A DNA stretch of 64,000 nucleotides, taken from contig NZ_JAGE01000001.1 in assembly GCF_000526495.1 (NCBI RefSeq), forward strand, positions 1,548,001 through 1,612,000, read 5' to 3'. Positions 1-16,162 of this stretch are shown here, piece after piece. The translations under genes and the position numbers were made by a program. The notes under the pieces were generated by a model. The model searched no databases. It was not told where the DNA came from and was given only the letters and a program-made list of their open reading frames with translations. Within the stretch, counting starts at the first letter, position 1. Every line of letters starts with the position of its first letter. This stretch comes from Ruminiclostridium josui JCM 17888 (GTDB lineage Bacteria > Bacillota > Clostridia > Acetivibrionales > DSM-1351).

Positions 1-1849
1 TTTTCTCAAATGGGTAGAGAGGCGTACTAACTTTTATTAAGTATTCTCCATCGTGTATCAGTTTCCAATCTAATTCTGTCCCGGTAACAAATTTTTGTGC
101 TAACTCAATCATGTATTCCGTGTTTATATCTAAAGTCTTCTCACCCTTTAATTGAGAAATAGCTGTTACGGGTTCACCTTTTAAAGAACCAAAGTAAATT
201 CCTAATTTTTTATTGGTAATAAATTTATTTCTCGTTATATACTCAAGCTTTGAAATAAAATCCTCTCTACTATCACCCAAAAGAGCTAAACGATATGTAT
301 AATGCTCCTTTCCTTCCTGAGCTGTATAACATATGTCTCTAATATCAAAATCTTTATTTATTTCAAGAAAGTCCCGATATCTTTTTACGTATTCCATTAA
401 TGCTACTTCTGTCTTTGCCGAAATTGGCAATAGATAACATCTTGTATCGCTAACCATGCGTTTACTCTCATTATTAACGTACTCTTCCAGAATAATATGA
501 CAATTTGTACCGCTCAAACCAAAAGAACTAATTCCACATCTTCTTGGATTTTTACCAAAATTCTCCCATGGCTGAACCTTGTCAACAACATATACAGCTG
601 AATTTATAAAGTTAATATTTTTGTTTGGTTCGGAAAAATTGATAGTTGGAAATAATGTGTGTGTTTTTAACCCTATTACACATTTAACCAATCCCAGTAA
701 TCCCGCTGCGGAATCTAAGTGCCCGTAGTTTGTTTTTATTGATCCTATTCCACAAAAGTGAGCTCTAGAAGTATATTTTTTAAATGCATTTGTAATTGCC
801 TCAATTTCTATAGGATCCCCGAGCTTTGTACCTGTACCATGAGCTTCCACATAACTTATAGTCTCCGGGTTAACATTACTATTTTCAAAAGCCTGAGTTA
901 TTACTTTTTCTTGTGCTGATACACTAGGTGCGGTAATCCCTATAGAAGCTCCATCGTTATTGCAGGCACTACCTTTTATTACGGCATAAATGTTATCTTT
1001 GTCCCTAATAGCTTTATTAAGAGATTTAAGTACAATGGCAATACATCCTTCTCCTTGTACAGTCCCATCAGCATCATCACTAAATGTCTTAACTTTATCT
1101 GTTGGTGACGCTATATCAGGTACTTGCTCACCTTTATATCTTATTGGTTCAAGTAGCAGGTTAATCCCCCCTACAAGAGCCATTTCACATTCATTATTTT
1201 TTATGGATTGGCAGGCCAAATGAACTGCTACCAGAGCTGAAGAACATGCTGTATCAACTGATAAAGAAACACCTGTAAGGTCAAAGATATAAGCTATTCG
1301 ACTCCCTATTATAGAATCAATATTTCCGGGCCCTGCCATAATAGCCATTTCAGGTTCGATTTCCTTCACACGTTTATAGTACTCAGTTGGATAAGGATGT
1401 CCCAAAAACACACCTGTTTTTGTACCTTTTAACTTTTGTCTCGTATAACCCGCATCTTCAAAAGCATGCCATGAAGTTTCAAGAAAAAGCCTTTGTAACG
1501 GGTCCATTAAACTTGCTTCCTTTGCAGATATCTTGAAAAACGGGAAATCAAATTTATCTATTTCCGGTAAAAACGCTGCATTTATGAATTGATAGCTTTC
1601 CTTACTAACTCCTTTAAAGCCAAGATAATCATTTACATCATCCATTCTTTCCTTACTTAAGGATGAAATACAATTCGTACCGTTATACAGTACATTAAAT
1701 AACTCACTTAAATTTTCTGCATTAGATAGCTTTATTGATATACCTATAATAGCGATATCATCGCTATTGTTAATTTTCTCTAATTTTACCTTGTTAGTTA
1801 ACTCTCCAGATTTCAATTTATTTAATAACTCAAAACTTCCATTGTTCAT
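1..1849 (-). CDS. Polyketide synthase, AT-less (trans-AT type), N-terminal ketosynthase part; continues off the left edge
   Basis: Extends a chain by decarboxylative Claisen condensation and is the last visible gene of the operon. The reading frame stays open to base 1, giving 616 codons. A ketosynthase domain fills about residues 25-455 with all three catalytic residues: Cys202 in DTACSS, His337 in EAHGTGT and His377 in NYGHLDSAAG. A KS-side linker follows. The frame then goes straight to the TELDW...TPLYPFEK stretch that normally follows an acyltransferase, with no AT domain (no GHSxG) between. This fits trans-AT enzymes, common in Firmicutes, so a separate AT gene is expected outside the window. 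The start is the ATG at 1849 behind GGTGG, 43 bases after the NRPS stop. Domains after the KS cannot be seen. Confidence 0.9.
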   Translation of the reverse strand, partial: MNNGSFELLNKLKSGELTNKVKLEKINNSDDIAIIGISIKLSNAENLSELFNVLYNGTNCISSLSKERMDDVNDYLGFKGVSKESYQFINAAFLPEIDKFDFPFFKISAKEASLMDPLQRLFLETSWHAFEDAGYTRQKLKGTKTGVFLGHPYPTEYYKRVKEIEPEMAIMAGPGNIDSIIGSRIAYIFDLTGVSLSVDTACSSALVAVHLACQSIKNNECEMALVGGINLLLEPIRYKGEQVPDIASPTDKVKTFSDDADGTVQGEGCIAIVLKSLNKAIRDKDNIYAVIKGSACNNDGASIGITAPSVSAQEKVITQAFENSNVNPETISYVEAHGTGTKLGDPIEIEAITNAFKKYTSRAHFCGIGSIKTNYGHLDSAAGLLGLVKCVIGLKTHTLFPTINFSEPNKNINFINSAVYVVDKVQPWENFGKNPRRCGISSFGLSGTNCHIILEEYVNNESKRMVSDTRCYLLPISAKTEVALMEYVKRYRDFLEINKDFDIRDICYTAQEGKEHYTYRLALLGDSREDFISKLEYITRNKFITNKKLGIYFGSLKGEPVTAISQLKGEKTLDINTEYMIELAQKFVTGTELDWKLIHDGEYLIKVSTPLYPFEK

Positions 1850-1892
1850 TAAAACCACCATTATCTATTTTTAAAATTTAGTACTCTAATAA

Positions 1893-4800
1893 TCAAACAG
1901 TAATATTATCAAGTAACCCAGCAAACATCTTGAAAAATTCCTCCATCTTATCCTCTCGTAAATTACAATAGCTATAACTACAATTGAATAAAATTTCATT
2001 TCCTACTTCTTCTCTCACCTCAATAAGAATGTCATAAACATCTCCCAAATTACCGTTGTAAACAAGACCTGACCTATATATAAACGGTATTATAGAGTTG
2101 GAGTTCTTTTTAAACTTTGTTAGCTTAAGACTATCTATTTTATATAATTTGCTTTCCTTTTCACGGATAATTGCAGAATTTACAGCATAGAATATATCTT
2201 CAATCCCATAAATTTCACTAAAGTCTAACTCGATGGATAAAGCCTTATTATCCTCATTTCCTGAAGAAGTCTGAATCTTAATTAATTGATTTTTACTTGA
2301 GTCAGAAATCAGTAAAGCAAAAAGAGATACCACTATATCCCAATAAGTTACATTTTCTTTTTGCGCTAATGATTTTAAACCCATAGTAGTCTTTTTAGAC
2401 AATCTGAATTCATACTTAATTTCTTTTTCTGTATTTATGGTATTACTAAAAAAATCTTCATTTAACGCTACTTCTAAATCTAATTCTTTACTTTCAAATG
2501 CAGTTTTCAATTCCAAAAGATATTCTGCCAGAGCTTGGATTGTTGGATATTTGAAAAAATCGGTTACTTTTATTTCTGGAAATTTAACACTTATTTGAGA
2601 GTGCATTTTAACAAGTAAAAATGAATTACCTCCTATGTCAAAATAATTATCTGTAACCCCAAACTTATCAATGTTTAAGTTTTGAGACCAAACCTCATAT
2701 AAATAAGCTTCAATCTCATTAGAAGGAAGGATATTCTCAGAATTAAAAGATACCTCCGGCTCTGGTAAAGCTCTAATATCTGCTTTACCGCTTGGTGTAC
2801 ACGGGATTGAATCAAGCCTTACGTAATAGTTCGGTATCATATAGTCTGGCAGATTGTGGGATAGATAATTCCTAATATCACTCGTTCCTATGTCATTTTC
2901 TGAGACATAATATGCACATAAAATTTTTTCATTATTATGTCCTTCTTTTGGAGCAATTGCAACATTTTTTATACCCGGGTAACTCAATATGTTTCTTTCT
3001 ATCTCTTCTAGTTCTACACGGAATCCTCTGATTTTTATTTGAGAATCCATTCTACCGATATACTCTATAATCCCTTCTTCCAAGAAAACCCCTAAATCAC
3101 CTGATTTATAAAGCTTTTCAGCAGGATTTTTGCTAAATCTGTTGGCAACAAACCGGCTATTTGTCAATTCCTCCTGCTTTATGTACCCCGGAGAAACTCC
3201 AATACCTCCAATATATATCTCTCCAGGAACTCCAATAGGACAAAGATTCATTTCTTCATCAAGTATATATATTTGCATATTTTGAGCAGGTATCCCGATT
3301 GGGACAACACTTCTTCTGTCAGTAAACGGATTAAATTTATGAATCATACATCCTACTACCGTCTCAGTAGGACCGTACTCATTATATATACTAACCCTGC
3401 CGTCAAATTTCTCATATACTTTAAGTGCCAATTCCGTAGTAAGCTGTTCACCTCCAACAATAATTTTTTTAATCATTGATTTCGAACAGTCCATTTCGAG
3501 AAGTAACCTTAAATGAGTAGGCGTAGCTTTTATAATATTTGATACTCCATCTTTGACAATATTATTTAACACAGTTATTTCCTTGGGGTAAATTACTATA
3601 GTATTACCACTTATTAAAGGTGTGTATATAGAGGTAACAGTTAGGTCGTATGCAACTGAAGAATATAGCGGAAAATAAATCTGTTCATTTTCAAAATATT
3701 GTTTTATCGCCCATTCAACATAATTAACTACGCCTTTTTGTTTTATCATACAACCTTTGGGCTTTCCTGTTGAACCGGATGTGTAAATAATATATATCAA
3801 ATCCTCAGGGCTATAACTATTCTCAACGTATTCCCCTTTACCAGAAGATAAATCAACCTTGTCAATATTTATCACTTTATATAGCCTCTGGATTTCTTGA
3901 GTTTCTATAGAGTTTTCCGTTAATAAAACATTACAGTTGCAATCTTGCAGCATAAACATTTTTCTTTCATGAGGAAAATCAGGATCAATTGGTAAGTATG
4001 TAGCACCTGATTTTATAATACCTAAAATAGCTATAATTAGCCAAGGTGAATTGTTCATCATTAATCCAACAATCTCTCCCTTAGCCACACCTTCATTTTT
4101 CAGCTTATGTGCCAAGCTGTTAGAAATCTGTTTCAATTCTAGATAAGTTATCTTAATGCTGTTATGTATAATTGCAATCTTATCAGGTGTTTCCTGAACA
4201 CGCTTATCAAATAATTGCTGAATTGTCTTCTGTGAAGAAAACTTCTTTGCAGTATCATTGTATTCTAAGATGAATTTTTTCTCATTCTCTGGAGATATTA
4301 TTTTAATATCTTTAATAGAAATATCAGGATTATGTATAACAGCATTTATTATTCTTTTATAAAAAGCTATGTATCGCTCAATTGTAGTTTTCTTAAATAA
4401 TCTGGAACAATACTCAAGTTCAAAGTCTATAGTTCCATTATTCTCTGTTGCAAAGAAAGTTAAATCAAATTTAGATGTCTTTCTCTCATACCTATACTTT
4501 ACCAGGCTCATACCGGGAATTCTGAAATCAGAGTTATCTGAATTCTGCATAACAAAGGATACATCAAAAAGCGGATTTCGATTTGTGTTCCGTTGTACAT
4601 CCAAATCCTCTATTATATCTTCAAATTGATAATCCTGATTTTCAAAAGCATTTAATACTTTATCTCTAATCTGAGAAAGCAGAGTAGTAAATGGTAACTG
4701 TTTGTCAATATTCCCTTTAATAGGAATAGTATTAGCAAACATCCCCACTATATCATGTGTATCGGGATGAGTTCTTCCAGATGTAACAGTTCCTATTACT

Positions 4801-7800
4801 ATATCATCCTGGTTTGTTAGCTTATTAAACAGAATAAAAGAGACTGCCATTAACAGCATGAAGTTTGAACAATTTTCCTTTCTTGCAATCTCTTCAAGCT
4901 TATGCACCACTTCTCTTTCAATTGTAAATCTTATTCTATCACCATCATAATTCTGGATGTCGGGTCTTATGTAGTCCGTTATAAGATTTAAAACGGGAAT
5001 ATCACCTTTAAACTCTTCTAACCAATATTGCTTCTGCCTTTCAAGCTTTTTATTTAATTTTTGCTCTAATTGCCATTGGGCATAATCCTTATAGCTTTTT
5101 GTAAGTGCAGGCAATTCAACTCCGGAATATAACCTATAAATATCATTAATTAGAATACTGCTTGAAAAGCCATCTGAGATTATATGGTGCATGTCAATTA
5201 CAAGAACATGTAAGCTATTTTTCAGGCTAATTAAACCTACTCTAAACAGACATGGCTTACTCAAATCAAATGAACGCACAAATTGGTTTATTTTATCTTG
5301 TATGCTGGACTCTGTAGATTCCAACTCTTCAATACAAAAATCTACTTTTTCGTAAATTTTTTGTACGACTTCCTCATCTTTAAGTAAAAAAGCCGTCCTT
5401 AAGCTTTCATGACGTTGTATAAGGCATTTAAAAGCATTTTTAAGTTTCTCTATATCAACAGTATCTTCTATAAGATAAGCCTCTGTCATATTATAATTAG
5501 TGCTTTTAGGGTTCATTTGATTTAATATATACAGACGTTTTTGAGCTGATGCTAGAGCGTAAAACTCTTTTTCCTGTGCTTTCGGGATACCAGAATAATT
5601 CTCCTCTACACCGTTTCTAATATACTCCGCAATTTGCCTTATAGTAGATTTCTTAAACACCTCATCGACAGGTATCTTTATACAGAACTCTTTATATAGT
5701 CTTGATACTAAAACTGTTATTTTAAGTGAATGTCCGCCTAATCTGAAAAAATCCGTATCAATGCCAATCCGGTTCTTTTCTATAGATAAAATTTCCGCCC
5801 AAATATCACTTATTTTTTCTTCAATATCATCTCTCGGAGCAACATATTCTTCATCCATGCCAGTTTCAAATTCAGCTAACTTTTTGTAGTCCACTTTACC
5901 ATTTGGAGTCACTGGTATTTCCTGAATCTCTATAAGCTGTGACGGAATCATAAACTCAGGCAATTTAGTGCTAAGATAGTTTCGTAAACGAACCGTATCA
6001 ACTTTTGTTTCAGGAACTATATAAGCAATTAATTCTTTTTCATCCTCGGTAGTATCACGAACTGTTATTATTGCTTCCTTGATACCCTCATATTTGGATA
6101 TCATAATTTCTATTTCGCTTATTTCAAGTCGTGAACCCCTTATTTTCACCTGCTGATCATTACGTCCCAGAAACTCTACAGTCCCATCAGGTAGCCATCT
6201 TCCCTGATCACCTGTTTTATATATTTTTTCACCGGTACGGAAAGGATTTGCGACAAATCTTTCCTCAGTTAGTTCTGGTTTATTTAAATATCCCCGCGCT
6301 ATACCTGACCCACCTACATATATTTCTCCCGGAACACCTGATGGCTGCAGTTCACCATCGCTGTTCATAATGTATATACTTGAATTATTTATTGGTCTTC
6401 CAATAGGAATAGTTTGCTCGTAAGTCTTATCTACAGGTATCCATGATGAAAAGGTTGTATTTTCAGTAGGTCCATACATGTGTAGTATTTTAAGGTTTTT
6501 ATATTTTGTTCTAATATTATTTAAGTACTTTGGCCTCACAAGATCCCCACCGATTAGAAAGTACTTTAGATTTTTGAAGACACTATCATTATAAAATGCT
6601 ATCTGATTAAACAATTGAGGTATTAAGTGCAATATTGTTATATTATTATTGTTTATATAATCCCCAAGTTGAAAAGGATCCAACAAAACCTTATTATTTA
6701 TAATATGTAGTGTCAAGCCGTTTAGCAATGATGCCCACACTTCAAATGTAGTAATGTCAAATACAAAAGATCCTGTCATAAGCAGATGATCTGATGGCTC
6801 TACTTCAATGAAATTCATTCCCTTAACAAGACTTATGACTCCCTTATGCTCTATCATTACGCCCTTAGGATTACCTGTGGAACCTGACGTATAAATGACA
6901 TAAGCAAGTTGAGCCGCATCTGTATACTCTTGAATACACGAAAAATCTTCATTAGCATTTGTGTCTGTAACCGTATTTAAACTAATAATGTCTCCTTTAA
7001 AACCAAGGTCGATTATTTTGTCAAAATACTCCTCAAATGACAATATAATTTTCACTTGCGAATCATCTAGCATGTATTTTATCCTGTTCAAAGGATAATT
7101 TGGATCAAGAGGCAAGTATGCGCAGCCAATTTTTAATATCGCCAGCAAACCCACTATGGTTTCCGGTGATGAATGTGTCATTATCCCAATAATTGAACCA
7201 GGTTCGATACCGTTATCAATGAGTTTACAGGCTAGTATATCCGACAAATAATCTATTTGCCTATACGTTAAAGATTCATTATTATAAATTACAGCATCAT
7301 TTTCGGAGAATTTTTCTGCTGTTTCTTTAAATAATTTATGTATAGTCGAACCCTGTGGATATGGTACCTGTGTATTGTTATATTCATTGAGAATTTTTTC
7401 TTCTTCGTACTTTGTTATGATTTTATAATCTTTTATTTTACCGTAGGGATTCTCAATTATTTGTGAGAATAAAAATGAAAACCGCTGACCCAGGGCATTT
7501 ATTGTACTATCTTTAAACAAACAGGCATTATATGAAATAACTAACTCTAAATCAACATTACTTCTCCTGAGAAGTAAAACCATTTCACTGCCAAATTCCC
7601 CGTAGAAGCTTTCAGTCTTATTTTTTTCATGTATCTTATCAAACATAAAAAAATATCTAAAAATTTCACTGTTTTTATATTGATCTAATTTTTTGATTAC
7701 TTTTTTTATGGGATAGAAATAGTTTTTATACCCTCCAGATACCTTCTCTTTTACTTTTGTAAGTATTGCCATGAATGTATCGTCACTATTTATGTCAGTA

Positions 7801-8129
7801 TTAATTACTATGCAATTTTCGAAATCTAATACCTGGTTTATCAACATGGGAACAGATATGCCAATGTTATTACCGCCGGTATATTTGTGCATCAATATCG
7901 TAAATACCGCAAGTTGAAATACGAAAATTGAAATATCGTCATTTCTACATATTCTATATAATTTCTGGCATTCATCCCTGTCAAGATTAAAACAACAAGA
8001 CTTTACTTCTACTCTGCTATTATTTGGGTAATCATACATAATTCCTGCATTATAAATGCTACCAGATAATTGATTTATCCAATACTCTTTTGCTTTTTCC
8101 AACGAATCGTTATTAATAAATGTTCTCAT
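1893..8129 (-). CDS. Two-module nonribosomal peptide synthetase (half-C, A, PCP, C, A, PCP, half-C)
   Basis: Activates two amino acids and joins them on carrier domains. Numbered from the ATG at 8129 (behind GGGG; another ATG lies four codons upstream with no ribosome site): C-terminal half of a condensation domain 1-240; adenylation A1 260-755 (TSGSTGNPKG, YKTGD, NGKVD); carrier Ser801 in LGGHS; full condensation domain 855-1285 with HHIISDG; adenylation A2 1300-1790; carrier Ser1836 in IGGNS; another C-terminal half-C 1900-2078. By eye against GrsA, the A1 pocket residues are D458 I459 F462 H501 L525 G527 M551 T559 F560 K745 and the A2 residues are D1495 L1496 T1499 K1534 I1557 G1559 E1584 V1592 G1593 K1782. 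A2 closely matches the known Asn code. A1 begins like hydroxyphenylglycine codes. There is no epimerase or thioesterase, so the chain probably passes to the downstream PKS. Confidence 0.95.
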   Translation of the reverse strand: MRTFINNDSLEKAKEYWINQLSGSIYNAGIMYDYPNNSRVEVKSCCFNLDRDECQKLYRICRNDDISIFVFQLAVFTILMHKYTGGNNIGISVPMLINQVLDFENCIVINTDINSDDTFMAILTKVKEKVSGGYKNYFYPIKKVIKKLDQYKNSEIFRYFFMFDKIHEKNKTESFYGEFGSEMVLLLRRSNVDLELVISYNACLFKDSTINALGQRFSFLFSQIIENPYGKIKDYKIITKYEEEKILNEYNNTQVPYPQGSTIHKLFKETAEKFSENDAVIYNNESLTYRQIDYLSDILACKLIDNGIEPGSIIGIMTHSSPETIVGLLAILKIGCAYLPLDPNYPLNRIKYMLDDSQVKIILSFEEYFDKIIDLGFKGDIISLNTVTDTNANEDFSCIQEYTDAAQLAYVIYTSGSTGNPKGVMIEHKGVISLVKGMNFIEVEPSDHLLMTGSFVFDITTFEVWASLLNGLTLHIINNKVLLDPFQLGDYINNNNITILHLIPQLFNQIAFYNDSVFKNLKYFLIGGDLVRPKYLNNIRTKYKNLKILHMYGPTENTTFSSWIPVDKTYEQTIPIGRPINNSSIYIMNSDGELQPSGVPGEIYVGGSGIARGYLNKPELTEERFVANPFRTGEKIYKTGDQGRWLPDGTVEFLGRNDQQVKIRGSRLEISEIEIMISKYEGIKEAIITVRDTTEDEKELIAYIVPETKVDTVRLRNYLSTKLPEFMIPSQLIEIQEIPVTPNGKVDYKKLAEFETGMDEEYVAPRDDIEEKISDIWAEILSIEKNRIGIDTDFFRLGGHSLKITVLVSRLYKEFCIKIPVDEVFKKSTIRQIAEYIRNGVEENYSGIPKAQEKEFYALASAQKRLYILNQMNPKSTNYNMTEAYLIEDTVDIEKLKNAFKCLIQRHESLRTAFLLKDEEVVQKIYEKVDFCIEELESTESSIQDKINQFVRSFDLSKPCLFRVGLISLKNSLHVLVIDMHHIISDGFSSSILINDIYRLYSGVELPALTKSYKDYAQWQLEQKLNKKLERQKQYWLEEFKGDIPVLNLITDYIRPDIQNYDGDRIRFTIEREVVHKLEEIARKENCSNFMLLMAVSFILFNKLTNQDDIVIGTVTSGRTHPDTHDIVGMFANTIPIKGNIDKQLPFTTLLSQIRDKVLNAFENQDYQFEDIIEDLDVQRNTNRNPLFDVSFVMQNSDNSDFRIPGMSLVKYRYERKTSKFDLTFFATENNGTIDFELEYCSRLFKKTTIERYIAFYKRIINAVIHNPDISIKDIKIISPENEKKFILEYNDTAKKFSSQKTIQQLFDKRVQETPDKIAIIHNSIKITYLELKQISNSLAHKLKNEGVAKGEIVGLMMNNSPWLIIAILGIIKSGATYLPIDPDFPHERKMFMLQDCNCNVLLTENSIETQEIQRLYKVINIDKVDLSSGKGEYVENSYSPEDLIYIIYTSGSTGKPKGCMIKQKGVVNYVEWAIKQYFENEQIYFPLYSSVAYDLTVTSIYTPLISGNTIVIYPKEITVLNNIVKDGVSNIIKATPTHLRLLLEMDCSKSMIKKIIVGGEQLTTELALKVYEKFDGRVSIYNEYGPTETVVGCMIHKFNPFTDRRSVVPIGIPAQNMQIYILDEEMNLCPIGVPGEIYIGGIGVSPGYIKQEELTNSRFVANRFSKNPAEKLYKSGDLGVFLEEGIIEYIGRMDSQIKIRGFRVELEEIERNILSYPGIKNVAIAPKEGHNNEKILCAYYVSENDIGTSDIRNYLSHNLPDYMIPNYYVRLDSIPCTPSGKADIRALPEPEVSFNSENILPSNEIEAYLYEVWSQNLNIDKFGVTDNYFDIGGNSFLLVKMHSQISVKFPEIKVTDFFKYPTIQALAEYLLELKTAFESKELDLEVALNEDFFSNTINTEKEIKYEFRLSKKTTMGLKSLAQKENVTYWDIVVSLFALLISDSSKNQLIKIQTSSGNEDNKALSIELDFSEIYGIEDIFYAVNSAIIREKESKLYKIDSLKLTKFKKNSNSIIPFIYRSGLVYNGNLGDVYDILIEVREEVGNEILFNCSYSYCNLREDKMEEFFKMFAGLLDNITV

Positions 8130-8143
8130 AAGTAACCCCATTT

Positions 8144-9517
8144 TTATTTAAAATCGAACTCAATATTGGGAATAAACTCCTCTAATACATTGCCAGTATA
8201 AACAAGATTTTCCACTAAGCATTTAGGATTGTCTATCAAGTCTACAATAATTTGCATAAAGCTCTTCATCATTTTTTCCACTTCTTGATTTTCATAAATA
8301 TCTTTTCTATATTTAATACTTACCTCACACTCTTGAAACAATCGTATTTCAAAAGTTATAGGAAAACTGGTTTTCAATCTATTGTTTTGATAATCAATAA
8401 CCCTCAGAATATTGTTATTAAACAAAAATTCCATATCTACAGGATAATTTTCAATAACCATAATTGAATCAAACAGTTCCTCATTTTTATTACACGAAAC
8501 ATATTTCTTTATCTCTGAAATAGGAACTTGTTCAAAATCACTTCTGGCTTCAATCTCCTTATTAACTCTAGTTAGAAGATCTATTATAGTGTCTTTTGGC
8601 TTTACTTTGACTCTTAAAGGTATAGTATTGATAAACAGACCAATAATTTTATCTACATCTTTTATTAAAGAATTTCTGCCTGACACTACAGTTCCAAAAA
8701 TAATATCATCAGTATAGCTTTTTTTTTGAAGACACAAACCCCAAACTGTAAATAATATAGATGATACAGTTATCTGATTTTCCATTGCAATACAATTTAA
8801 CTTGTCAAGTATTTGTTTGCTTATTATTGAGTCGTAAGCTCCAATATCATAGGATTTAGTATCATTATCTGGCTCTCTTTTTGTAGTCTGTATAGTATCA
8901 ATCTTGTTCAAGTATTTTTTCCAGAAGCTTTCTGCATTTTTTTGCTTCTTTGATAATTTGACAAACTCCTTATAACTTGTCTTATACACTCTTGGAAGAC
9001 TTTTGTTCTGGCTTAAACTAATATATGCTTGTACAAATTCTTTTAATAGAATTCCATTACTCCATCCATCATATATAATATGATGGATATTAATTATCAT
9101 GTGAAGCAAATTACTTTCCTCGCAACAGAAAGTTATGCGAAATGGAACTGTTGCCAGATCAAATCCTTTACTTATTTCATCAAATTTGATTTGCTCTATT
9201 CTTTCACTTATACTTTTAGAATCTTGTATCTCACTTAGATCGTAGTAAGTAATTTCAACATCATTTTTCTTAAGAATAATCTGTACAGGTGACCTTAACC
9301 CTTCCCACCGAAAGATTGTCCTCAAAGCTCCATTACTGTCTACTACGTGCTGCCACGCTTTTATGCATAAGGGAAATACCACATTCCCCACAAGTTTAAT
9401 ATGAATCTGTTCAAAATATTGGTCTTTGCCCTCATTAGCAATATAATCAAAAAGCATTGCTTCCTGCATAAATGATAAACCAATAATATCCTCTACATTA
9501 TTTGCATCAATTTTCAT
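8144..9517 (-). CDS. Stand-alone NRPS condensation domain protein
   Basis: A free-standing condensation enzyme of 457 residues, the length of one complete C domain. The catalytic motif HHIIYDG lies near residues 144-150, after an LSFMQEAML-type C1 motif near residue 14 and before the SGRN and GLFINTIPLR motifs of the C-terminal lobe. There is no adenylation or carrier domain. Its ATG overlaps the aminotransferase stop as ATGA, with AGGAG six bases upstream, so the two are translationally coupled. The next NRPS begins with only half a C domain, so this protein may supply the missing condensation in trans, for example acylating the first aminoacyl unit. That role is inferred; a separate release or coupling step is also possible. 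Confidence 0.9.
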   Translation of the reverse strand: MKIDANNVEDIIGLSFMQEAMLFDYIANEGKDQYFEQIHIKLVGNVVFPLCIKAWQHVVDSNGALRTIFRWEGLRSPVQIILKKNDVEITYYDLSEIQDSKSISERIEQIKFDEISKGFDLATVPFRITFCCEESNLLHMIINIHHIIYDGWSNGILLKEFVQAYISLSQNKSLPRVYKTSYKEFVKLSKKQKNAESFWKKYLNKIDTIQTTKREPDNDTKSYDIGAYDSIISKQILDKLNCIAMENQITVSSILFTVWGLCLQKKSYTDDIIFGTVVSGRNSLIKDVDKIIGLFINTIPLRVKVKPKDTIIDLLTRVNKEIEARSDFEQVPISEIKKYVSCNKNEELFDSIMVIENYPVDMEFLFNNNILRVIDYQNNRLKTSFPITFEIRLFQECEVSIKYRKDIYENQEVEKMMKSFMQIIVDLIDNPKCLVENLVYTGNVLEEFIPNIEFDFK

Positions 9518-10764
9518 GACTTACTCCTGATAAACTTAGCCAGTCTTTCTAAACCATCTTCGATTTGCTTTTCCGTAAGATTGCTGAATGCTATCCTTAT
9601 TTGATTTGTTCCTTGGCTCTTATTTATACAAAACATATACATAGGGCAAACTATAACGGAGTATTTTTCAACACATTCAAGAATTAAGCTATCCGTTAAT
9701 GAGAACGGAATGTCCAAACTCATAAAAAATCCTCCTAACGGTTTTTGCCAATTCAGGCCATGTCCAATGCACCGTCCAATAGTATCTATTAATATATTTC
9801 TATTTTTCATACAACTTTCAACTTTTGGTTTACACAATGCTTTCAGAGAATAATTTTCCTTTTCTAAAACTGCACCTAGCATTGCCTGAAGAATTACTGA
9901 TGAATTAACAGTGATAAAGCTTTTCACCTTTTTTAACATCTCGGAAAGACTATACGATACATTATTATGCTTTATCTTTCCATCTGCAAGTAAATACCCA
10001 AGTCTCATAGAAGGAAAAATAGTTTTTGAAAAACTGCCTATATGAATTACTCTTTTATATTTATCAATTGCTTTCAGAGTGGGTATTTTCTCTGTATCAT
10101 AAATATAATATCCATAAGGATTATCTTCTACGATATAAAAGTCATATTTTTCAGCTAATTCAATGATTTTTTTTCGTTCACTTAAAGGCATGTAGCTACC
10201 TGTCGGATTATGAAAATCAGGGACTTCGTATAATACTTTTGGTTTTTTACCCTGTTTTATTAGATTAATAACTGTATCTTCTAAGTCATCCATATCTATA
10301 CTTTGATTTTTTCTTTTAATTGTACATACATTTACTCCGGCTATTTTTGCATACCCTATAAAACCTATATAAGAAGGCTCGCTAACCATAAGAACATCCT
10401 TCTTAGATGAAAAAAGCGAATTTATAACTATAGCCATTGCTTCCTGTGCTCCATCAGTTATGATAATATCTTCCGAATCTATAGTTATACCTTCGTCATT
10501 GTATACAAGTTTTGCTATATATTCATTTATTATGCCTTTTGTGAAATTATATTGTCCCAAATAATTAAAGTAAGCATTTTCGTCCATATTCCGGGGTTTA
10601 TTTTTTTTCACAAAGTCCTTTATTCCCAAGACTACTTCCTCTACATTAAAGAATTCCTCATTTGGTCTCCCGGAACCGAATGAGATTGCTGACGGATGTT
10701 TAACGCTTATTTCATTGAGAAAATTCATTGATTCAAGATATGTATCAAATAAGTTATTATTCAC
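9514..10764 (-). CDS. PLP-dependent class I aminotransferase
   Basis: Transfers an amino group between a 2-oxo acid and an amino acid. At 416 residues it has the fold-type I layout of the AADAT/Aro8 and MocR-like group: GRPNEEFF near the N-terminus, DGAQEAM, NPTGSYMPLSERK, VEDNPYGYY, the PLP lysine in GSFSKTIFPSMRLGYLL, and a C-terminal arginine in NQIRIAFS. No DNA-binding domain precedes it. The start is GTG at 10764 with GTGAGG upstream; the end overlaps the condensation gene. Phenylglycine and hydroxyphenylglycine pathways (PglE, HpgT) use transaminases of this class, so amination of an arylglyoxylate for NRPS module 1 is the favoured inference. It could equally run backwards to make a 2-oxo acid for the oxidoreductase. 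Confidence 0.9.
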   Translation of the reverse strand: MNNNLFDTYLESMNFLNEISVKHPSAISFGSGRPNEEFFNVEEVVLGIKDFVKKNKPRNMDENAYFNYLGQYNFTKGIINEYIAKLVYNDEGITIDSEDIIITDGAQEAMAIVINSLFSSKKDVLMVSEPSYIGFIGYAKIAGVNVCTIKRKNQSIDMDDLEDTVINLIKQGKKPKVLYEVPDFHNPTGSYMPLSERKKIIELAEKYDFYIVEDNPYGYYIYDTEKIPTLKAIDKYKRVIHIGSFSKTIFPSMRLGYLLADGKIKHNNVSYSLSEMLKKVKSFITVNSSVILQAMLGAVLEKENYSLKALCKPKVESCMKNRNILIDTIGRCIGHGLNWQKPLGGFFMSLDIPFSLTDSLILECVEKYSVIVCPMYMFCINKSQGTNQIRIAFSNLTEKQIEDGLERLAKFIRSKS

Positions 10765-10780
10765 TCGGTTTACCTCACAT

Positions 10781-10966
10781 TTAAATATCCATACACTCTA
10801 TTTTTAATATTTCAACCAGAACCTTTAACTGTTTAGCATTTTTTTTAATGCATGGAATTGAATTACCACTTTGAACTAAATCTTGGACTGATTCCTCTAA
10901 CTTCTGAATTAGCCTTTGTATATCGGCAATATCTTCATGAGTTTTACTATTCTCAGCTACAAGCAT
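10781..10966 (-). CDS. Small conserved-looking protein, function unknown
   Basis: A 61-residue protein that I do not recognise. It begins two bases after the ligase stop behind a near-perfect AAAGGAGG, spaced normally from its ATG, and ends 16 bases before the aminotransferase start, so the operon layout argues that it is translated. The sequence is mostly predicted helix with a break at GNSIPC; it has two cysteines and no membrane segment. It is not MbtH-like (no NxExQxSxWP pattern) and has no carrier-protein serine motif. It might be a small partner of the ligase or aminotransferase, but nothing in the sequence proves that. Confidence 0.7.
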   Translation of the reverse strand: MLVAENSKTHEDIADIQRLIQKLEESVQDLVQSGNSIPCIKKNAKQLKVLVEILKIECMDI

Positions 10967-10968
10967 AT

Positions 10969-12300
10969 TTATGTTTCCTCCTTTATATTTATGTAGCGCT
11001 TGGATTTCAGTTCATTTGTTTGTAATTCTCCATTTTTCTTTAATGTAATAACAAAGTTAAGAAAAGTTTTGCTATATATTCTTTCTCTCAGCCTTTCCCT
11101 TATTTCGTCATATTCTGAATCTGCAACTCCACAAGCCGTCTCTACCACAAGCTCTAACTTTCTGATCTTTTCACTGACTTGTATTATATATTCTCTTCCT
11201 AGTTTTTCCTCGCTCTGTACGATGTCTTCTATAACCGCAGGGGTAACAAATGTTCCACGCACTTTAATCAAATGATCTATTCTTCCCTTTACGCCACCTT
11301 TTAACATCCTATATGTCCGATTACACGTACAGGGTAAATCCTGCCAGCAAGCCAAATCATTTGAATTAAATCGAATACACGGCCTACCCTTCCTGTGTAA
11401 AGCAGTTATTACCAAATAGCCGTATTTGTTAGGTTCTGTAATTATTTCATGAGTATCAAGATCTAGTATTTCTACTAAAAACATACTTTCATTTATGTGG
11501 AGTCCCCCTGACTTTTCAGAACATTCGAATCCCCAGGCTCCAATCTCAGTTGCTCCGATATGATCGTAAACATCACAATCCCATTGTGACTCTATTTCTT
11601 TTTTGGTTGAATTGATCAACGCACCCGGTTCACCAGCACATATAATCTTTTTTACTGAAGTTTTTCTTAAATCAATACCTTTTTCTTTTGCTACATCTAT
11701 TAATCTAAAAATATATGTTGGAGTAGATATTATTGTCGTGATATCCAGTTCCAGAATTTTTTCAATCCTTTGCTGAGATGTAAGCCCTCCAGCCGATACT
11801 ATCTCAGCACCGATTTTTTCACACCCGTAGTGAGCTCCCCAAAAACCAATAAACAAGTTATAATTAAAGGCAATTAATACTCTATCATTCTCCCTTATCC
11901 CCTGAGCCCAAAGAACCGTAGCCCAACATTCAGCCCACCAATACCAATCCTCTAGGGTGTCAGGTTGTCTTATGGGATTATGCGTTGTACCACTTGTTTG
12001 ATGATAGAAAACAACCTCATCTTCTGGAACGGCAAGTAAATTACCGTAAATTGAACTAGATTTATTTTTATCTAGAAATTCCTTGTTAACTATAGGAACC
12101 TTATTTATATCATCGAAACACTTAATCATGTCCGGATTTACACCATGTGCATCATATAAATTCCTATATGCCGGTGAGTTTAGATATGCAAATGTAAAAA
12201 TATCTTTAAACCTTTTAAACTGTAATTCTTTTATCTTGGTTACATCAAGGGTTTCCATGTACGGGTTCCAGTAAATAGATGATTCTTTATTAGTATTCAT
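10969..12300 (-). CDS. PaaK-family adenylate-forming ligase (phenylacetate-CoA ligase-like)
   Basis: Activates a carboxylic acid with ATP, probably to a CoA thioester. At 443 residues it has the length and order of PaaK: an N-terminal FAYLNSPAYRNLY helix, the P-loop near TSGTTHNPI (the usual glycine after TT is histidine), ICAGEPG, the YDHIGATEIG motif, a CTC cysteine cluster, GRIDHLIKVRGTFVTPAVIE, and a C-terminal lysine-rich KSKR tail. PaaK relatives act on phenylacetate and other aryl acids; the substrate here is unknown. In this operon it could make the aryl-CoA that the adjacent oxidoreductase would carboxylate. The ATG at 12300 follows AGGTAGG. A 237-base gap separates it from the oxidoreductase genes, the largest break in the operon. 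Confidence 0.88.
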   Translation of the reverse strand: MNTNKESSIYWNPYMETLDVTKIKELQFKRFKDIFTFAYLNSPAYRNLYDAHGVNPDMIKCFDDINKVPIVNKEFLDKNKSSSIYGNLLAVPEDEVVFYHQTSGTTHNPIRQPDTLEDWYWWAECWATVLWAQGIRENDRVLIAFNYNLFIGFWGAHYGCEKIGAEIVSAGGLTSQQRIEKILELDITTIISTPTYIFRLIDVAKEKGIDLRKTSVKKIICAGEPGALINSTKKEIESQWDCDVYDHIGATEIGAWGFECSEKSGGLHINESMFLVEILDLDTHEIITEPNKYGYLVITALHRKGRPCIRFNSNDLACWQDLPCTCNRTYRMLKGGVKGRIDHLIKVRGTFVTPAVIEDIVQSEEKLGREYIIQVSEKIRKLELVVETACGVADSEYDEIRERLRERIYSKTFLNFVITLKKNGELQTNELKSKRYINIKEET

Positions 12301-12537: not shown

Positions 12538-13338
12538 TTAAGGGGTACTATCCTCTTTAATTACTTTTTTAAATCGTTTTTGAAGTTTTAGATATTTAAG
12601 TGTATTTATATTCTCTGATATTTGAATATTAATCTTTTTTTGTCCTTCAATAATCTCGTAAAGTGTCCACAGCCCTGTTTCCACTGCTTTTCTTGCCACC
12701 TCAACTGTCATACTGGCATCAAACCCCCACCCCGTAGGGCAAGGAGTATGTATATGAATATATGCAGGCCCATTCACATCTTTAGCAGTTTTAACCTTTT
12801 TTTTCAAATCGTTTAAATAACCTATTGAAGCTGATGCTACGTATGGTATATTATGTGCCTCAACAATTTTAAGCATATCTTTTTTGGGAGTAAGCTTACC
12901 CCCTGGTGTAGTTGTTGTCCACGCACTGTAAGGACTTGAGCCACTACCTTGCATCCCAGTATTCATATATGCTTCATTGTCATAGCATATGTACAACACT
13001 CTTTCTCTTCTTTCAAGCATACCGGACAACGACTGTAACCCTATGTCTACTGTTGCCCCATCTCCAGCGAATCCCAATACTGTTATGTCTTCTTTGCCTC
13101 GAATATCAAGACCAGCACGGATTCCTGCCGCATATGCAGCAGTGTTCTCAAGATTACCTTGAAATCCCGGTATTTTTAGAGCTGTGGAATTGCCATAACC
13201 GGAAAAAAGCGCTGCGCAACCGGGGGGAATTACTATGATGGTTTTTTCGCCCAACACACCCAATACACATCTAATTGCAATTTCTAACCCACATCCTGCA
13301 CAAGTACTAACACCATTAGCTACTAGATTATTACTCAT
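12538..13338 (-). CDS. 2-oxoacid:ferredoxin oxidoreductase, beta (thiamine diphosphate) subunit
   Basis: Binds thiamine diphosphate and carries the catalytic core of a PorB-type enzyme that interconverts a 2-oxo acid plus CoA with acyl-CoA plus CO2 and reduced ferredoxin. The family marks are CAGCG near the N-terminus, GFAGDGATVDIG (the ThDP/Mg motif), YDNEAYMNTGMQ and a conserved second-half cysteine in HTPCPTG. I choose the ATG at 13338, with AAGG upstream, which puts the CAGCG motif at residue 10 as is normal. An upstream in-frame ATG at 13377 has no ribosome site. Most clostridia use a one-chain pyruvate enzyme for housekeeping, so a split enzyme inside an NRPS operon suggests a dedicated substrate, such as an arylglyoxylate. 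Confidence 0.92.
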   Translation of the reverse strand: MSNNLVANGVSTCAGCGLEIAIRCVLGVLGEKTIIVIPPGCAALFSGYGNSTALKIPGFQGNLENTAAYAAGIRAGLDIRGKEDITVLGFAGDGATVDIGLQSLSGMLERRERVLYICYDNEAYMNTGMQGSGSSPYSAWTTTTPGGKLTPKKDMLKIVEAHNIPYVASASIGYLNDLKKKVKTAKDVNGPAYIHIHTPCPTGWGFDASMTVEVARKAVETGLWTLYEIIEGQKKINIQISENINTLKYLKLQKRFKKVIKEDSTP

Positions 13339-13423
13339 ATGCAATATACCTTGTGAGCATAACGTCATGGTCATCATTTTTTACATCATATATAAAGTTC
13401 AGTATTTCTCTCAGTTTTTTCAT
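13331..13423 (-). CDS. Possible 30-residue coupling ORF between the alpha and beta genes
   Basis: A short frame beginning MKKLREIL starts at the ATG at 13423, just after the alpha stop, with GGTGG about 12 bases upstream. Its TAA overlaps the preferred beta start. It fills the otherwise empty 87-base gap. It may be a real micro-ORF that couples beta to alpha translation, or chance; no homology can be judged at this length. Confidence 0.3.
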   Translation of the reverse strand: MKKLREILNFIYDVKNDDHDVMLTRYIAYE

Positions 13424-13425
13424 AT

Positions 13426-14646
13426 TTAAACACTTCCACCTTTTTTATTTAGCTTTCTTATTTTCATTGCATCTTGCTGTACATCTATCCAATTTTTATC
13501 ACTAAATTGATCGTCTAATAAACCGTAGAAGATATGCTCAATGATTTTTTCCGTTATGTCTCTTCCACCCAAGCCTGTTATAAAGTTCTTAACTTTACAC
13601 TTGTCGTCTCCTATTAAATTTTTTATCTCCATGCAAAGTGGCCCAAATTCTGCTCCCAATCCCGCACTCCTATCTAAGACCCCTATACATTTTATTTCCT
13701 TCAATATAGCCTTTAGTTTTTTATATGGAAATGGTCTGAAGCACGTAACCTTTATCGCCCCTACCCTAATTCCGTTATTCCTAAGTTTGTTGACAACATG
13801 TTTGACTGTACCACAGGAAGAGCCCATACTCACAATGACCGCCTGAGCACCATCACACCTATATGTACTCACCATGTCATAGTCTCGGTGGAATATATCA
13901 TTGAATTCATTCTGAACTGATGAAATAATATCAATTGCATTATTAAAAGCTATTTCTTGCTGATAACGCATTTCCGTAAATTCCTCAGGTGGAATCAAAT
14001 TGTTTATCAGCATAGGGTTATTCATATCAAGAAATAAGTTTTTAGGCGTATATGGAGGCAAAAAAGCGTCCACAGACTCTTGAGACGGAAGCCATACCTG
14101 TTGAAGGGAGTGGGATACAAAAAAACCATCCATACACACCATAAGAGGCAGCATCACTTTACAATGTTCAGCAATTTTATACCCCATAAGCATTAAGTCT
14201 AATACTTCTTGTGTATTCTCAGCATAAAATTGCATCCAGCCTGAGTCTCGTTCAGCCATTGTATCCTGATGATCACACCATAGACTCCAAGGGGATACCA
14301 GTGCCCTATTAACCACAGGCATAACAATAGGAAGCCTGCAGCCTGAAGCAACACCAAGTACTTCATGCATTAAGGCCAGGCCAACAGATGATGTCGCAGT
14401 ACCAGTTCTAACACCGGCTAACTGAGCTCCAATAATATAGGATAACGCAGAATGTTCTGACTCCACACATGTGTATTTGCAGCTTATCTCTTTTTTGTCC
14501 ACCATTGTAGAAAGTTTTTCTACAATAGGACTTTGCGGTGTAATAGGATAAGCAGCAATAACAGATACTCTTGCGAGTTTCATAGCCTGGGCAGCCGCGC
14601 CATTACCGTCCAACATTTCTTTATTTGATTTTGTATACTTATTCAT
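13426..14646 (-). CDS. 2-oxoacid:ferredoxin oxidoreductase, alpha subunit
   Basis: Alpha subunit of the same PorA-type complex, 406 residues. The pyrimidine-binding domain opens with a DGNGAAAQAMKLA stretch and the AAYPITPQSP motif. Next come TATSSVGLALMHE and the NRALVSPWSLWCDHQD block, both typical of pyruvate-type alpha chains. The C-terminal half (from about residue 260) is the transketolase C-like domain with IVSMGSSCGTVKHV and FRPFP. Its ATG overlaps the delta stop by eight bases, so the genes are coupled. Related enzymes include pyruvate, 2-oxoisovalerate and phenylglyoxylate oxidoreductases; the chain alone does not settle the substrate. It lacks the extra domains of the fused clostridial enzyme. 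Confidence 0.92.
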   Translation of the reverse strand: MNKYTKSNKEMLDGNGAAAQAMKLARVSVIAAYPITPQSPIVEKLSTMVDKKEISCKYTCVESEHSALSYIIGAQLAGVRTGTATSSVGLALMHEVLGVASGCRLPIVMPVVNRALVSPWSLWCDHQDTMAERDSGWMQFYAENTQEVLDLMLMGYKIAEHCKVMLPLMVCMDGFFVSHSLQQVWLPSQESVDAFLPPYTPKNLFLDMNNPMLINNLIPPEEFTEMRYQQEIAFNNAIDIISSVQNEFNDIFHRDYDMVSTYRCDGAQAVIVSMGSSCGTVKHVVNKLRNNGIRVGAIKVTCFRPFPYKKLKAILKEIKCIGVLDRSAGLGAEFGPLCMEIKNLIGDDKCKVKNFITGLGGRDITEKIIEHIFYGLLDDQFSDKNWIDVQQDAMKIRKLNKKGGSV

Positions 14647-14908
14647 TCTTCACCATTAAAATATAATTTTTTCTACAAATATTTGCACAGATGCCGCAAC
14701 CTTTACAAAAATTATAGTCTATAGAAATCTTATTTTCGTTATCAATACTTATTATCCCAGTTGGACAATACTCCTCACATTGTCTACACATAATACACTT
14801 ACCATTATTGATAACAGGCTTGACGGTCTTCCAATTACCTACAGGAGCATTGTCAAACTTGGTTGCAACCGGTCCTAGCAAGCAATTAAGTAATTTTTGT
14901 TTTTTCAT
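14639..14908 (-). CDS. 2-oxoacid:ferredoxin oxidoreductase, delta (ferredoxin-like) subunit
   Basis: Carries electrons between the thiamine centre and free ferredoxin. This 89-residue protein has two classic 4Fe-4S motifs, CIMCRQCEEYCP and CKGCGICANIC, separated by the usual loop. The N-terminal 30 residues include the GNWKTVKPVIN stretch seen in PorD-like subunits. It starts inside the gamma gene (23-base overlap) and ends inside the alpha gene, which indicates coordinated, equal synthesis of the subunits. Confidence 0.92.
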   Translation of the reverse strand: MKKQKLLNCLLGPVATKFDNAPVGNWKTVKPVINNGKCIMCRQCEEYCPTGIISIDNENKISIDYNFCKGCGICANICRKNYILMVKNE

Positions 14909-15428
14909 AGGCCTCTCTTATAAGTCCTTCATAGACTTTACCAATATTTCGATCAAATATATCCTTAATACATTCTACAAGGCTCTCCAAACCCACAGCT
15001 CCTGCTTGTGCTAGCGCTCCAAGCATTGGAATATTTGCCCTATCCTGTTGTAATCTGTCCATAGATAATTGAGATGCATCAACATAATATATATTTTTAA
15101 ATGAATATTTCGTGAAAATAGTACTTTCTGACGAATTAACAATGAGTATTGTGTCTTGGTGTATTCCTTTAGATATATCAATTCCGTTATTTTTTATAAA
15201 TGGATCGAACAACATAACAATATCTGGCTCATATATAAATGTATTAAGAAGTATTGGCTTTTCGTCAATATAAACATCTGAAGAAACAGGCGCACCTCTT
15301 CTTTCATGTCCATAAGCCGGTATGATTTTAGCATATTTATTTTCATAAATACATGCCAAACTACATATTAGTTTAGATGCTGTTACAACTCCCTGGCCAC
15401 CAATACCATATATTTTTATTTTTTTCAT
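14886..15428 (-). CDS. 2-oxoacid:ferredoxin oxidoreductase, gamma subunit
   Basis: Gamma subunit of the complex, thought to help bind CoA. At 180 residues it has the family length and marks: GIGGQGVVTASKL at the N-terminus, the YGHERRGAPVSSDV loop, and NIPMLGALAQAG near the C-terminus. It starts at 15428, sharing a base with the methyltransferase stop, and runs into the delta gene. The ERRGAP form resembles pyruvate-type rather than 2-oxoglutarate-type gamma chains. The substrate is inferred from context only. Confidence 0.92.
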   Translation of the reverse strand: MKKIKIYGIGGQGVVTASKLICSLACIYENKYAKIIPAYGHERRGAPVSSDVYIDEKPILLNTFIYEPDIVMLFDPFIKNNGIDISKGIHQDTILIVNSSESTIFTKYSFKNIYYVDASQLSMDRLQQDRANIPMLGALAQAGAVGLESLVECIKDIFDRNIGKVYEGLIREAYEKTKIT

Positions 15429-16162
15429 TATACAAGTTCCTTCGTAAATTCATAAGCTGCAATGCTCACAGCTATTTGAAGACTTAATGAGTCAATACAG
15501 TCATTCTGTGATATAGCTAAACTAACACCATAATTACTGAATTCCTTTGGTAGTCCTCTTGACTCATTTCCAAAAACTAATGAAAAAGGATATTTGATAT
15601 TATCTTTCTGGTTAATCTCGTGAAGCTTTTCTTTACCATCCAGCATGAACATATATAAATTATGATTACCTGCAAAACTCAGATACTCGTCAAATTCATT
15701 ATAGTACTCAAAATTAATACTAAATAATGCCCCCATTGAAGCCCTTATAACTTTTGGGTCAAATATATCAACCGCCGGACGGACAAGCGCCAAATCGCTA
15801 ATTCCAAATCCAACTAATGTTCGAATAATTGTCCCCAAATTTCCCATATTACTTGGGTTAACTAAGACAACATGATTATTTGATGCATTAATTTTTGAAT
15901 TGTACTTTTTTAAAACACCAACAACCAAACAATTTTCCTTTGGAGATATTCTTTGAATAAATTTGTCATCTGTAACTACTTCTACTCTTTCCCTTATACA
16001 TATCTCATTTAGATTATTAAAGAATTCGCTCTTATAAAAGCTTGTTGAAATAAATACTTTTAATATAACACCCGGCATTAACTTTAGAAGCTCAATAGTA
16101 GGATAAGCTCCAAAGGTATATGTATACTCGGCATCTTTTTTATAATTTTTAAATTTAAACAA
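15428..16162 (-). CDS. SpoU/TrmH-family RNA 2'-O-methyltransferase; possible self-resistance gene
   Basis: A SAM-dependent, knotted SPOUT enzyme that methylates a ribose 2'-OH in rRNA or tRNA. It is 244 residues with the three SpoU motifs: NMGNLGTIIRT (near residue 108), VFGNESRGLP (near 193) and DSLSLQIAVSIAAYEF at the C-terminus, plus a short N-terminal substrate-binding part. The start is TTG at 16162 behind GGGAAGG. It is the first gene of the biosynthetic operon and its stop overlaps the oxidoreductase gamma start, so it is co-expressed with the pathway. Housekeeping rlmB is present elsewhere in this window. TsnR and AviRb are SpoU enzymes that protect producers of ribosome-targeting antibiotics. 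Self-resistance here is an inference; a neutral tRNA methylase is the alternative. Confidence 0.85.
   Translation of the reverse strand: MFKFKNYKKDAEYTYTFGAYPTIELLKLMPGVILKVFISTSFYKSEFFNNLNEICIRERVEVVTDDKFIQRISPKENCLVVGVLKKYNSKINASNNHVVLVNPSNMGNLGTIIRTLVGFGISDLALVRPAVDIFDPKVIRASMGALFSINFEYYNEFDEYLSFAGNHNLYMFMLDGKEKLHEINQKDNIKYPFSLVFGNESRGLPKEFSNYGVSLAISQNDCIDSLSLQIAVSIAAYEFTKELV

Follow-up and report, generated by a model that had tools for sequence, protein, structure and literature searches.

The window analysed here is a stretch of 64,000 nucleotides from Ruminiclostridium josui JCM 17888 (NZ_JAGE01000001.1, positions 1,548,001 to 1,612,000), the left end of which is the 5' part of a large biosynthetic cluster on the minus strand. 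The cluster encodes a nonribosomal peptide synthetase (NRPS), whose first adenylation domain (A1) has the pocket code DIFHLGMTFK, and beside it a cassette of a four-subunit 2-oxoacid:ferredoxin oxidoreductase, an acyl/aryl-coenzyme A (CoA) ligase and an aminotransferase. The best reading of this arrangement, with a probability of roughly 45%, is that reductive carboxylation of an aryl-CoA leads to an arylglycine without need of oxygen, and that A1 loads the product. It is likely, more broadly, that the cassette lengthens an acid with CO2 and supplies the product to A1. The observations behind these readings are the gene order, the enzyme families, the residues of the pocket, the position of A1 next to valine (Val)-type domains, and the linkage of the cassette with A1. 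Of the candidates for the monomer, an arylglycine formed without oxygen ranks first, its main rival being an unusual branched aliphatic amino acid.

In the proposed route the operon would make its own non-proteinogenic amino acid and load it on module 1. The PaaK-like ligase would form the CoA thioester of an aromatic carboxylic acid (benzoate or 4-hydroxybenzoate class), and the oxidoreductase, acting as a synthase, would use CO2 and electrons of reduced ferredoxin to form an arylglyoxylate. The aminotransferase would then yield the arylglycine, either phenylglycine (Phg) or 4-hydroxyphenylglycine (Hpg), and A1, of Val descent, would activate it. In this route, we infer in which direction the oxidoreductase runs, that the acid is aromatic and what A1 activates. 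More tentatively, Phg or Hpg may be made independently of O2 in anaerobic Firmicutes, and A1 may have gained its arylglycine recognition by change of a valine pocket, separately from the Hpg domains of actinobacteria.

Vancomycin-, streptogramin- and calcium-dependent antibiotic (CDA)-type antibiotics contain arylglycines as key residues. The known routes to them pass through phenylpyruvate- or mandelate-type intermediates in actinomycetes. If the present reading is true, a three-enzyme path that starts with CO2 and a simple aromatic acid would differ from those routes, would explain arylglycine synthesis by an anaerobe and would give the arylglycine pocket a second origin.

Enzymes of the cassette

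From position 16162 downwards, the genes follow in the order SpoU-type methyltransferase, oxidoreductase gamma, delta, alpha and beta, ligase, a 61-aa protein, aminotransferase, condensation protein, NRPS and polyketide synthase (PKS), all on the minus strand. The oxidoreductase is of the four-subunit type with adjacent subunits, and the models TIGR02175, TIGR02179, PF01855 and PF02775 are all over their cut-offs. These comprise gamma (14886..15428; TIGR02175, 138.6 bits, cut-off 81.1), the ferredoxin subunit delta (14639..14908; TIGR02179, 89.8 bits, cut-off 60.05), alpha (13426..14646; PF01855, 236 bits; best PDB relative 9bt4 chain B), and beta (12538..13377; PF02775; PRK11864, 338 bits, cut-off 405). 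The alpha and beta subunits passed no curated NCBIfam cut-off for the pyruvate, 2-oxoisovalerate, oxalate or phenylglyoxylate enzymes. The oxidoreductase is divergent, its alpha subunit being 63% identical to the Cellulosilyticum ruminicola counterpart and at most 43% (45% by a second comparison) to 29 others aligned, a number that leaves out one row repeating the gene of the window itself.

The ligase (10969..12300) is phenylacetate-CoA-ligase-like, and phenylacetate-CoA ligases are its closest solved relatives; it scores 223.3 of 646.3 bits against the PaaK equivalog TIGR02155, below the cut-off. Among the members of its PaaK-like group are a ligase that acts on the ring carboxylate 2-phenanthroate (PMC11497795) and an aliphatic 2-hydroxyisobutyrate enzyme, in which Tyr164 and Ser239 of the acyl pocket make it smaller and more polar (PMC8388817). 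The window ligase aligns Phe150 and Ala222 with these two residues, the chain numbering being matched through an offset of 11 that fits both and is probably correct. 2-Hydroxyisobutyrate was rejected as the acid of the ligase, since the pocket residues differ.

Between the ligase and the aminotransferase lies the 61-aa protein (10781..10966), found in this position in all three cassette loci; it has no Pfam or NCBIfam match at E 0.001. The proteins of the three loci are 51-61 aa long with few conserved residues, and two of them end in ..LKIECMDI. The aminotransferase (9514..10764; class I/II, PF00155) is the proposed arylglyoxylate transaminase. PH0207 and the alpha-aminoadipate and kynurenine aminotransferases are its relatives in the PDB, and its ortholog in locus L013 is 65% identical; the C. 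ruminicola one (L026) comes as two pieces with 58% and 54% identity.

Together, the ligase, oxidoreductase and aminotransferase form a generic acid-to-amino-acid cassette, R-COOH to R-CH(NH2)-COOH, if the oxidoreductase is reductive; were R an aryl group, three steps would thus yield an arylglycine. The initial annotation had taken the neighbouring oxidoreductase and aminotransferase to point to the same phenylglycine class of monomer as the pocket. Both enzymes are real and are conserved in one other complete cluster; what they specify is acid plus CO2 chemistry and not phenylglycine. Rather, they support a dedicated and probably non-proteinogenic monomer.

Linkage of the cassette with A1

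Orthologs of the cassette are rare in the genomes searched. At E 1e-60, the aminotransferase was found in 2 of 58 genomes of the order and in 1 of 391 of the class sample, the latter being the window's own. At E 1e-90, the ligase was found in 6 of 398 genomes of the phylum sample, with 39-51% identity in the other five; in both the class and the phylum sample, no more than four candidates were scored in each genome. These five genomes have ten ligase loci, which carry no oxidoreductase, aminotransferase or NRPS genes on the 2.7-4.3 kb covered per locus; one locus has a weak match to the small protein. A scan of 84,980 species genomes with two short peptide patterns gave 19 stretches, two of which encode cassette relatives, namely a contig of a Ruminiclostridium metagenome-assembled genome (MAG) and C. 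ruminicola JCM 14822. Viral contigs scanned with the aminotransferase gave no match.

The C. ruminicola cluster is collinear with that of the window, running PorG, PorD, PorA, PorB, ligase, small protein, aminotransferase, condensation protein and NRPS, with a U32-like gene inserted before the NRPS, and continuing with a PKS and a terminal asparagine (Asn)-type NRPS. In this draft, the genes for the ligase, the aminotransferase, the PKS and the last NRPS are each divided over more than one frame, which is either real or a draft artefact. The MAG has ligase, small protein and aminotransferase, 67, 46 and 65% identical. Both complete clusters found, from two distant Clostridia, combine the cassette with a DIFHLGMTFK domain, and since the cassette is linked, a dedicated and non-proteinogenic monomer is likely.

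A sibling cluster of C. ruminicola (G811 contig 17) provides one natural control. It has a related Asn-type NRPS module and a U32 pair, and 60 kb of the 70-kb contig gave no tblastn match to the oxidoreductase, ligase, small protein or aminotransferase. The four adenylation domains found in it read DICQLGMIWK, DVQFIAHVVK, AVIHIGLVGK and DLTKIGEVGK; the cassette and the DIFHLG domain are both absent from these 60 kb.

The cluster also encodes, below the window, a UbiU-like U32 protein that could add a ring hydroxyl without O2; U32 proteins of the UbiU/TrhP kind perform O2-independent hydroxylations. This protein (62 bits, cut-off 440) and a 458-aa partner that has no Pfam match lie at L009:7654-10075 (G000:C1:1535654-1538075). 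Relatives of the pair are 43% and 35% identical in the cassette-less sibling cluster (60 kb), and of the two proteins upstream of the MAG ligase, one is 25% identical over 97 aa to the pair and the other has no match. The pair was rejected as proof of ring hydroxylation, as a related pair lies in the sibling cluster, which shows no cassette on these 60 kb, and the upstream proteins of the MAG are hardly related to it. Its role may be that of an O2-independent hydroxylase that tailors the products of peptide clusters.

Substrate pocket of A1

The initial annotation had placed A1 at 5862-7349, and the location is right, the domain mapping to about 5835..7337. It had also read the ten pocket letters correctly, with residue numbers each 4 too low, which fits a start at Met5; here the first Met is residue 1. 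The GrsA position names 235, 236, 239, 278, 299, 301, 322, 330, 331 and 517 are assigned to A1 by motif position. Motif coordinates and alignment place D462, I463 and F466 (235, 236 and 239 positions) at 6744..6758, H505 (278) at 6627..6629, L529 and G531 (299 and 301) at 6549..6557, and M555, T563 and F564 (322, 330 and 331) at 6450..6479. The invariant Lys K749 (K517 of GrsA) at 5895..5897 follows from an invariant alignment column, K481 of the domain. Asp235 and Lys517, which serve the alpha-amino acid, are thus both present (D462, K749), and the GrsA structure 1amu is among the matches of A1 to solved structures. The core motifs of the module are likewise all there (YTSGSTGNPKG, YGPTENTT, GRNDQQVKIRG, TPNGKVD and LGGHSLK).

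The annotated bacillomycin D synthetase (L057) served to calibrate the extraction of codes, its six complete adenylation domains giving those expected for Asn, Tyr, Asn, Pro, Glu and Ser. The adenylation domains were aligned with MAFFT in 46 rows, or 41 without five repeats, one of the 41 being the BamA acyl ligase domain; the tenth letter K was entered as a constant in the codes of the tree domains and of the sibling-cluster domains. A shift of the pocket positions under proper alignment had been named as one finding that would undo the assignment. The alignments show no shift, and shifted positions are ruled out by them, the C. ruminicola ortholog included. This ortholog is 55-56% identical overall and has the same ten pocket residues, and hence the pocket feature is real and more than chance. 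An AlphaFold2 model of A1 built from four sequences has a mean pLDDT of 53.7 and a pTM of 0.44, with residues 138-221 and 289-404 below 50.

The initial annotation had matched the first six letters to an Hpg code given as DIFHLGLLCK. The match holds, with A1 and this code alike at 5 of 8 variable positions (I, F, H, L, G); specificity for Hpg is limited to I236 and H278, the other three letters being common with the Val code. In open-licence PMC papers, neither the exact string DIFHLGLLCK nor DIFHLG as the start of a word was found. An Hpg code DIYHLGLLCK is printed as a bioinformatic assignment, alongside the Val codes DAFWLGGTFK, DAYWWGGTFK and DAYFWGVTFK (PMC9113097, Table 7). I236 and H278 of A1 point to Hpg and T330 and F331 to Val, M322 is in neither code, and F239, L299 and G301 are common to the Val code and the Hpg code DIFHLGLLCK. 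In place of the ring-packing Leu330 and of the Leu322 behind the His in the Hpg structure 8GIC, and of Cys331 in the printed Hpg code, A1 has T563, M555 and F564.

The six closest non-orthologous domains to A1 all read DAFWLGGTFK (44-47% identity). Relative to these Val-type sisters, A1 has three pocket changes, A236I, W278H and G322M, so that Ala236, Trp278 and Gly322 are absent. A1 looks, in its sequence, like a valine-type domain carrying three pocket changes, and the label of an Hpg code is overstated for a Val-like pocket with Hpg-like features. The three changes, with a smaller floor residue and bulkier sides, would suit a flat ring extending a Val-like side chain.

Among the 41 domains, I236 and H278 occur together in three (A1, its ortholog and L038) and DIFHLG in two, the ortholog pair only. 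H278 occurs in seven, namely the A1 pair, L038 and four serine-type domains. DIFHLG alone was rejected as an Hpg signature, since F, L and G are common to the sister Val-type domains and DIFH is also in L038. L038, from another genome of the order, is a separate appearance of I236 with H278, in a glycine-clade adenylation domain; its genome gives no match to the aminotransferase of the cassette at E 1e-60.

Alternative substrates and routes

Several observations weigh against an arylglycine. A1 is like the printed Hpg code at 4 of 8 variable positions and like the Val code DAFWLGGTFK at 5 (F, L, G, T, F). The tree of the domains, 40 once the five repeats and the BamA acyl ligase are left out, contains no Hpg domain; in it, the DAFWLGGTFK clade is the sister group of A1 and its ortholog, with a support of 0.93. 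Thr at position 330 is close to the L295V change in the teicoplanin pocket described below, and L038, with the code DIFHIGGVGK, groups with glycine-type domains. The top scores of the oxidoreductase are to pyruvate and 2-oxoisovalerate models, and the models of the phenylglyoxylate enzyme Pad are all below their cut-offs (PadG 307.5 of 700, PadI 235.1 of 700, PadE 106.6 of 300 and PadF 60.5 of 150). No gene for a source of the aromatic acid was recognised among the cluster proteins scanned with Pfam and NCBIfam. The MAG lacks a close oxidoreductase, its best match being 42% identical, and has no ortholog of A1 at E 1e-100, its best domain (DILQLGMVWK) being 43% identical; this limits the linkage argument to the two complete clusters.

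The same cassette logic could instead serve a branched or alicyclic aliphatic acid, such as a short one that is hydroxylated or fully substituted, with A1 taking an unusual beta-branched aliphatic amino acid whose polar group is bound by H278. The placement of A1 beside the DAFWLGGTFK clade, with a support of 0.98 when the nine pocket columns are removed, is in favour of this, as are the retained T330 and F331. The best NCBIfam model of the beta subunit, PRK11864, is that of 3-methyl-2-oxobutanoate, and the GEPGA and GxWGA motifs are common to the ligase and the 2-hydroxyisobutyryl-CoA ligase. However, G322M and A236I would occupy the space needed by an aliphatic side chain, H278 is in no Val/Ile-type domain among the 41, and the ligase lacks the Tyr164 and Ser239 of the 2-hydroxyisobutyrate enzyme. 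An aliphatic monomer of this kind is a serious, if less probable, competitor.

It is improbable that A1 activates plain Val or Ile and that the cassette serves another step, such as a starter acid for the stand-alone condensation protein. The Val-clade placement and the five common code letters would fit such a domain, and the condensation protein beside the cassette could accept an acyl-CoA or an extra amino acid. Yet three of the eight variable letters are changed, all three are kept in the 55-56% identical ortholog, and W278H would leave a hole around Val.

An ordinary or substituted arylalanine, made from arylacetyl-CoA and CO2 through an arylpyruvate and taken by A1 as a Phe or Tyr type, deserves little credence. 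Rumen bacteria make arylalanines from arylacetates in this way, phenylacetate-CoA ligases are the nearest solved relatives of the ligase, and the aminotransferase resembles kynurenine and aminoadipate enzymes. Against this, no dedicated route is needed for Phe and Tyr, A1 is unlike the bacillomycin D Tyr code DALSVGEVVK or the aromatic-type code DASTIAAICK, and the oxidoreductase is of the four-subunit type, with 25-52 bits to the indolepyruvate oxidoreductase models. Finally, an oxidative role of the oxidoreductase, like that of PglB/C, which convert phenylpyruvate to phenylacetyl-CoA in the Streptomyces phenylglycine route (PMC7089894), with the further oxidation steps missing or encoded elsewhere, is very improbable, since the CoA ligase would be redundant and the scan of cluster proteins recognised neither an oxidising enzyme like PglA nor a thioesterase like PglD, though no Pgl query was used.

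Other features of the cluster

The NRPS (1893..8141, 2082 aa) is arranged as A1-T-C-A2-T, where A, T and C are adenylation, thiolation and condensation domains, and Pfam finds two stretches each of AMP-binding, Condensation and PP-binding. By eye, condensation-like sequence of about 264 aa, apparently a C-terminal lobe only, precedes A1, and further such sequence follows the second T domain. The adenylation domain of module 2 (2697..4217) reads DLTKIGEVGK, an Asn-type code identical to both bacillomycin D Asn domains in L057. The stand-alone condensation protein (8144..9517; HHIIYDG motif, Pfam 278.5 bits) is a full one, and it lies ahead of an NRPS opening with the C-terminal-lobe-like piece only (7350-8141, by eye); C. 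ruminicola is likewise arranged. The ketosynthase-containing PKS protein begins in the window (1..1861) and runs about 3.5 kb past its lower edge.

The host genome is of 4.47 Mb in two contigs, and the cluster extends about 30 kb below the window. This part encodes the rest of the PKS, an acyl carrier protein / class III aminotransferase / condensation protein, a further aminotransferase, radical SAM and B12-radical SAM proteins, ATP-binding cassette (ABC) transporters and the U32 pair. It also encodes a Dph6-like ATP-pyrophosphatase (L009:5828-6538), a B12-binding radical SAM protein (L009:4343-5776), an asparagine-synthase-like protein (L009:1942-3291), an NRPS with an Asn-type adenylation domain, and a beta-lactamase/ABC fusion; the ABC and epimerisation features are partly by-eye calls. 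The NRPS-PKS system is unusually rich in modification enzymes.

At the head of the operon lies the SpoU-type RNA methyltransferase (15428..16162; PF00588, 93.9 bits), which overlaps the first oxidoreductase gene and shows a weak likeness to RlmB (54 of 160 bits) and to the TsnR/NshR resistance enzymes (48 of 425). It could give self-resistance against a ribosome-targeting product. It is not conserved, having no tblastn match in the C. ruminicola locus L026. Near the upstream edge of the cluster, 16823-18123 and 21676-23918 hold IS30-like transposase pieces and an IS21-type istA/istB pair, and between these regions lie small double-glycine-type peptides and a C39-peptidase-like open reading frame (all by eye). 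A dockerin-like repeat in a protein near the cluster, also seen by eye, suggests a cellulosome-forming clostridium.

Comparison with known systems

The Hpg comparison of A1 is based on the printed code and the residues described for the structure 8GIC. In 8GIC, the teicoplanin A1 with Hpg, the phenol is bonded by H237 and by the amide of G263, L261 and L287 hold the H237 imidazole, and L295 packs on the ring. H237Y together with L295V shifted this pocket to ordinary amino acids, L295V opening a cavity for those with a tetrahedral beta carbon (all from PMC10687080). Mapped by code order, H237, L261, L287, G263 and L295 correspond to 278, 299, 322, 301 and 330, so that H505 of the window A1 is a candidate Hpg-like phenol-binding residue. 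The two domains are alike at the positions of Asp235 (D196), His278 (H237), Leu299 (L261) and Gly301 (G263) and in a Glu five residues after Asp235 (E201). They differ at position 322, where the window A1 has Met and the teicoplanin domain L287, and at 330, where Thr takes the place of the ring-packing L295. These residues support a deep pocket with a polar floor, without proving Hpg.

The Hpg route uses the O2-dependent HmaS, a member of the 4HPPD family. The 4HPPD model has no match in the window genome at E 0.001; as a control, 8 of 14 genomes match, one over the cut-off. The L-Phg route runs from phenylpyruvate to phenylacetyl-CoA (PglB/C), benzoylformyl-CoA (PglA), phenylglyoxylate (PglD) and Phg (PglE). 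The Streptomyces Pgl pathway resembles the window operon in its co-location with an NRPS and in the final arylglyoxylate transamination proposed here; it differs in starting at phenylpyruvate and in using a pyruvate-dehydrogenase-like complex, alpha-carbon oxidation and a thioesterase, none of which was recognised in the window operon (pathway as given in PMC7089894). PglA-D were not named by the Pfam and NCBIfam scans of the neighbouring proteins, in which no Pgl sequence was a query. The genes next to the NRPS are neither the known Hpg nor the known Phg pathway. In open-licence PMC papers (which does not imply unpublished status), no report was found that brings together phenylglycine, nonribosomal peptides, phenylglyoxylate and benzoyl-CoA, or phenylglycine and a gene cluster with ferredoxin oxidoreductase and aminotransferase, and a search on reductive carboxylation gave only matches that are off-topic by title.

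The phenylglyoxylate:acceptor oxidoreductase PadEFGHI of anaerobic aromatic degraders has four subunits homologous to those of the window, and the reaction proposed here would be its reverse; against the Pad models, the four window subunits fall well short of the cut-offs. In rumen anaerobes and methanogens, an acyl-CoA ligase and a 2-oxoacid oxidoreductase synthesise amino acids from an acid through the acyl-CoA and the 2-oxoacid. That route serves standard amino acids, whereas the window cassette sits in an NRPS-PKS cluster. The Val-activating DAFWLGGTFK domains, for example that of malacidin MlcM (PMC9113097, Table 7), have F239, L299, G301, T330 and F331 as in A1. They differ from A1 at A236I, W278H and G322M and form its sister group among the 40 domains.

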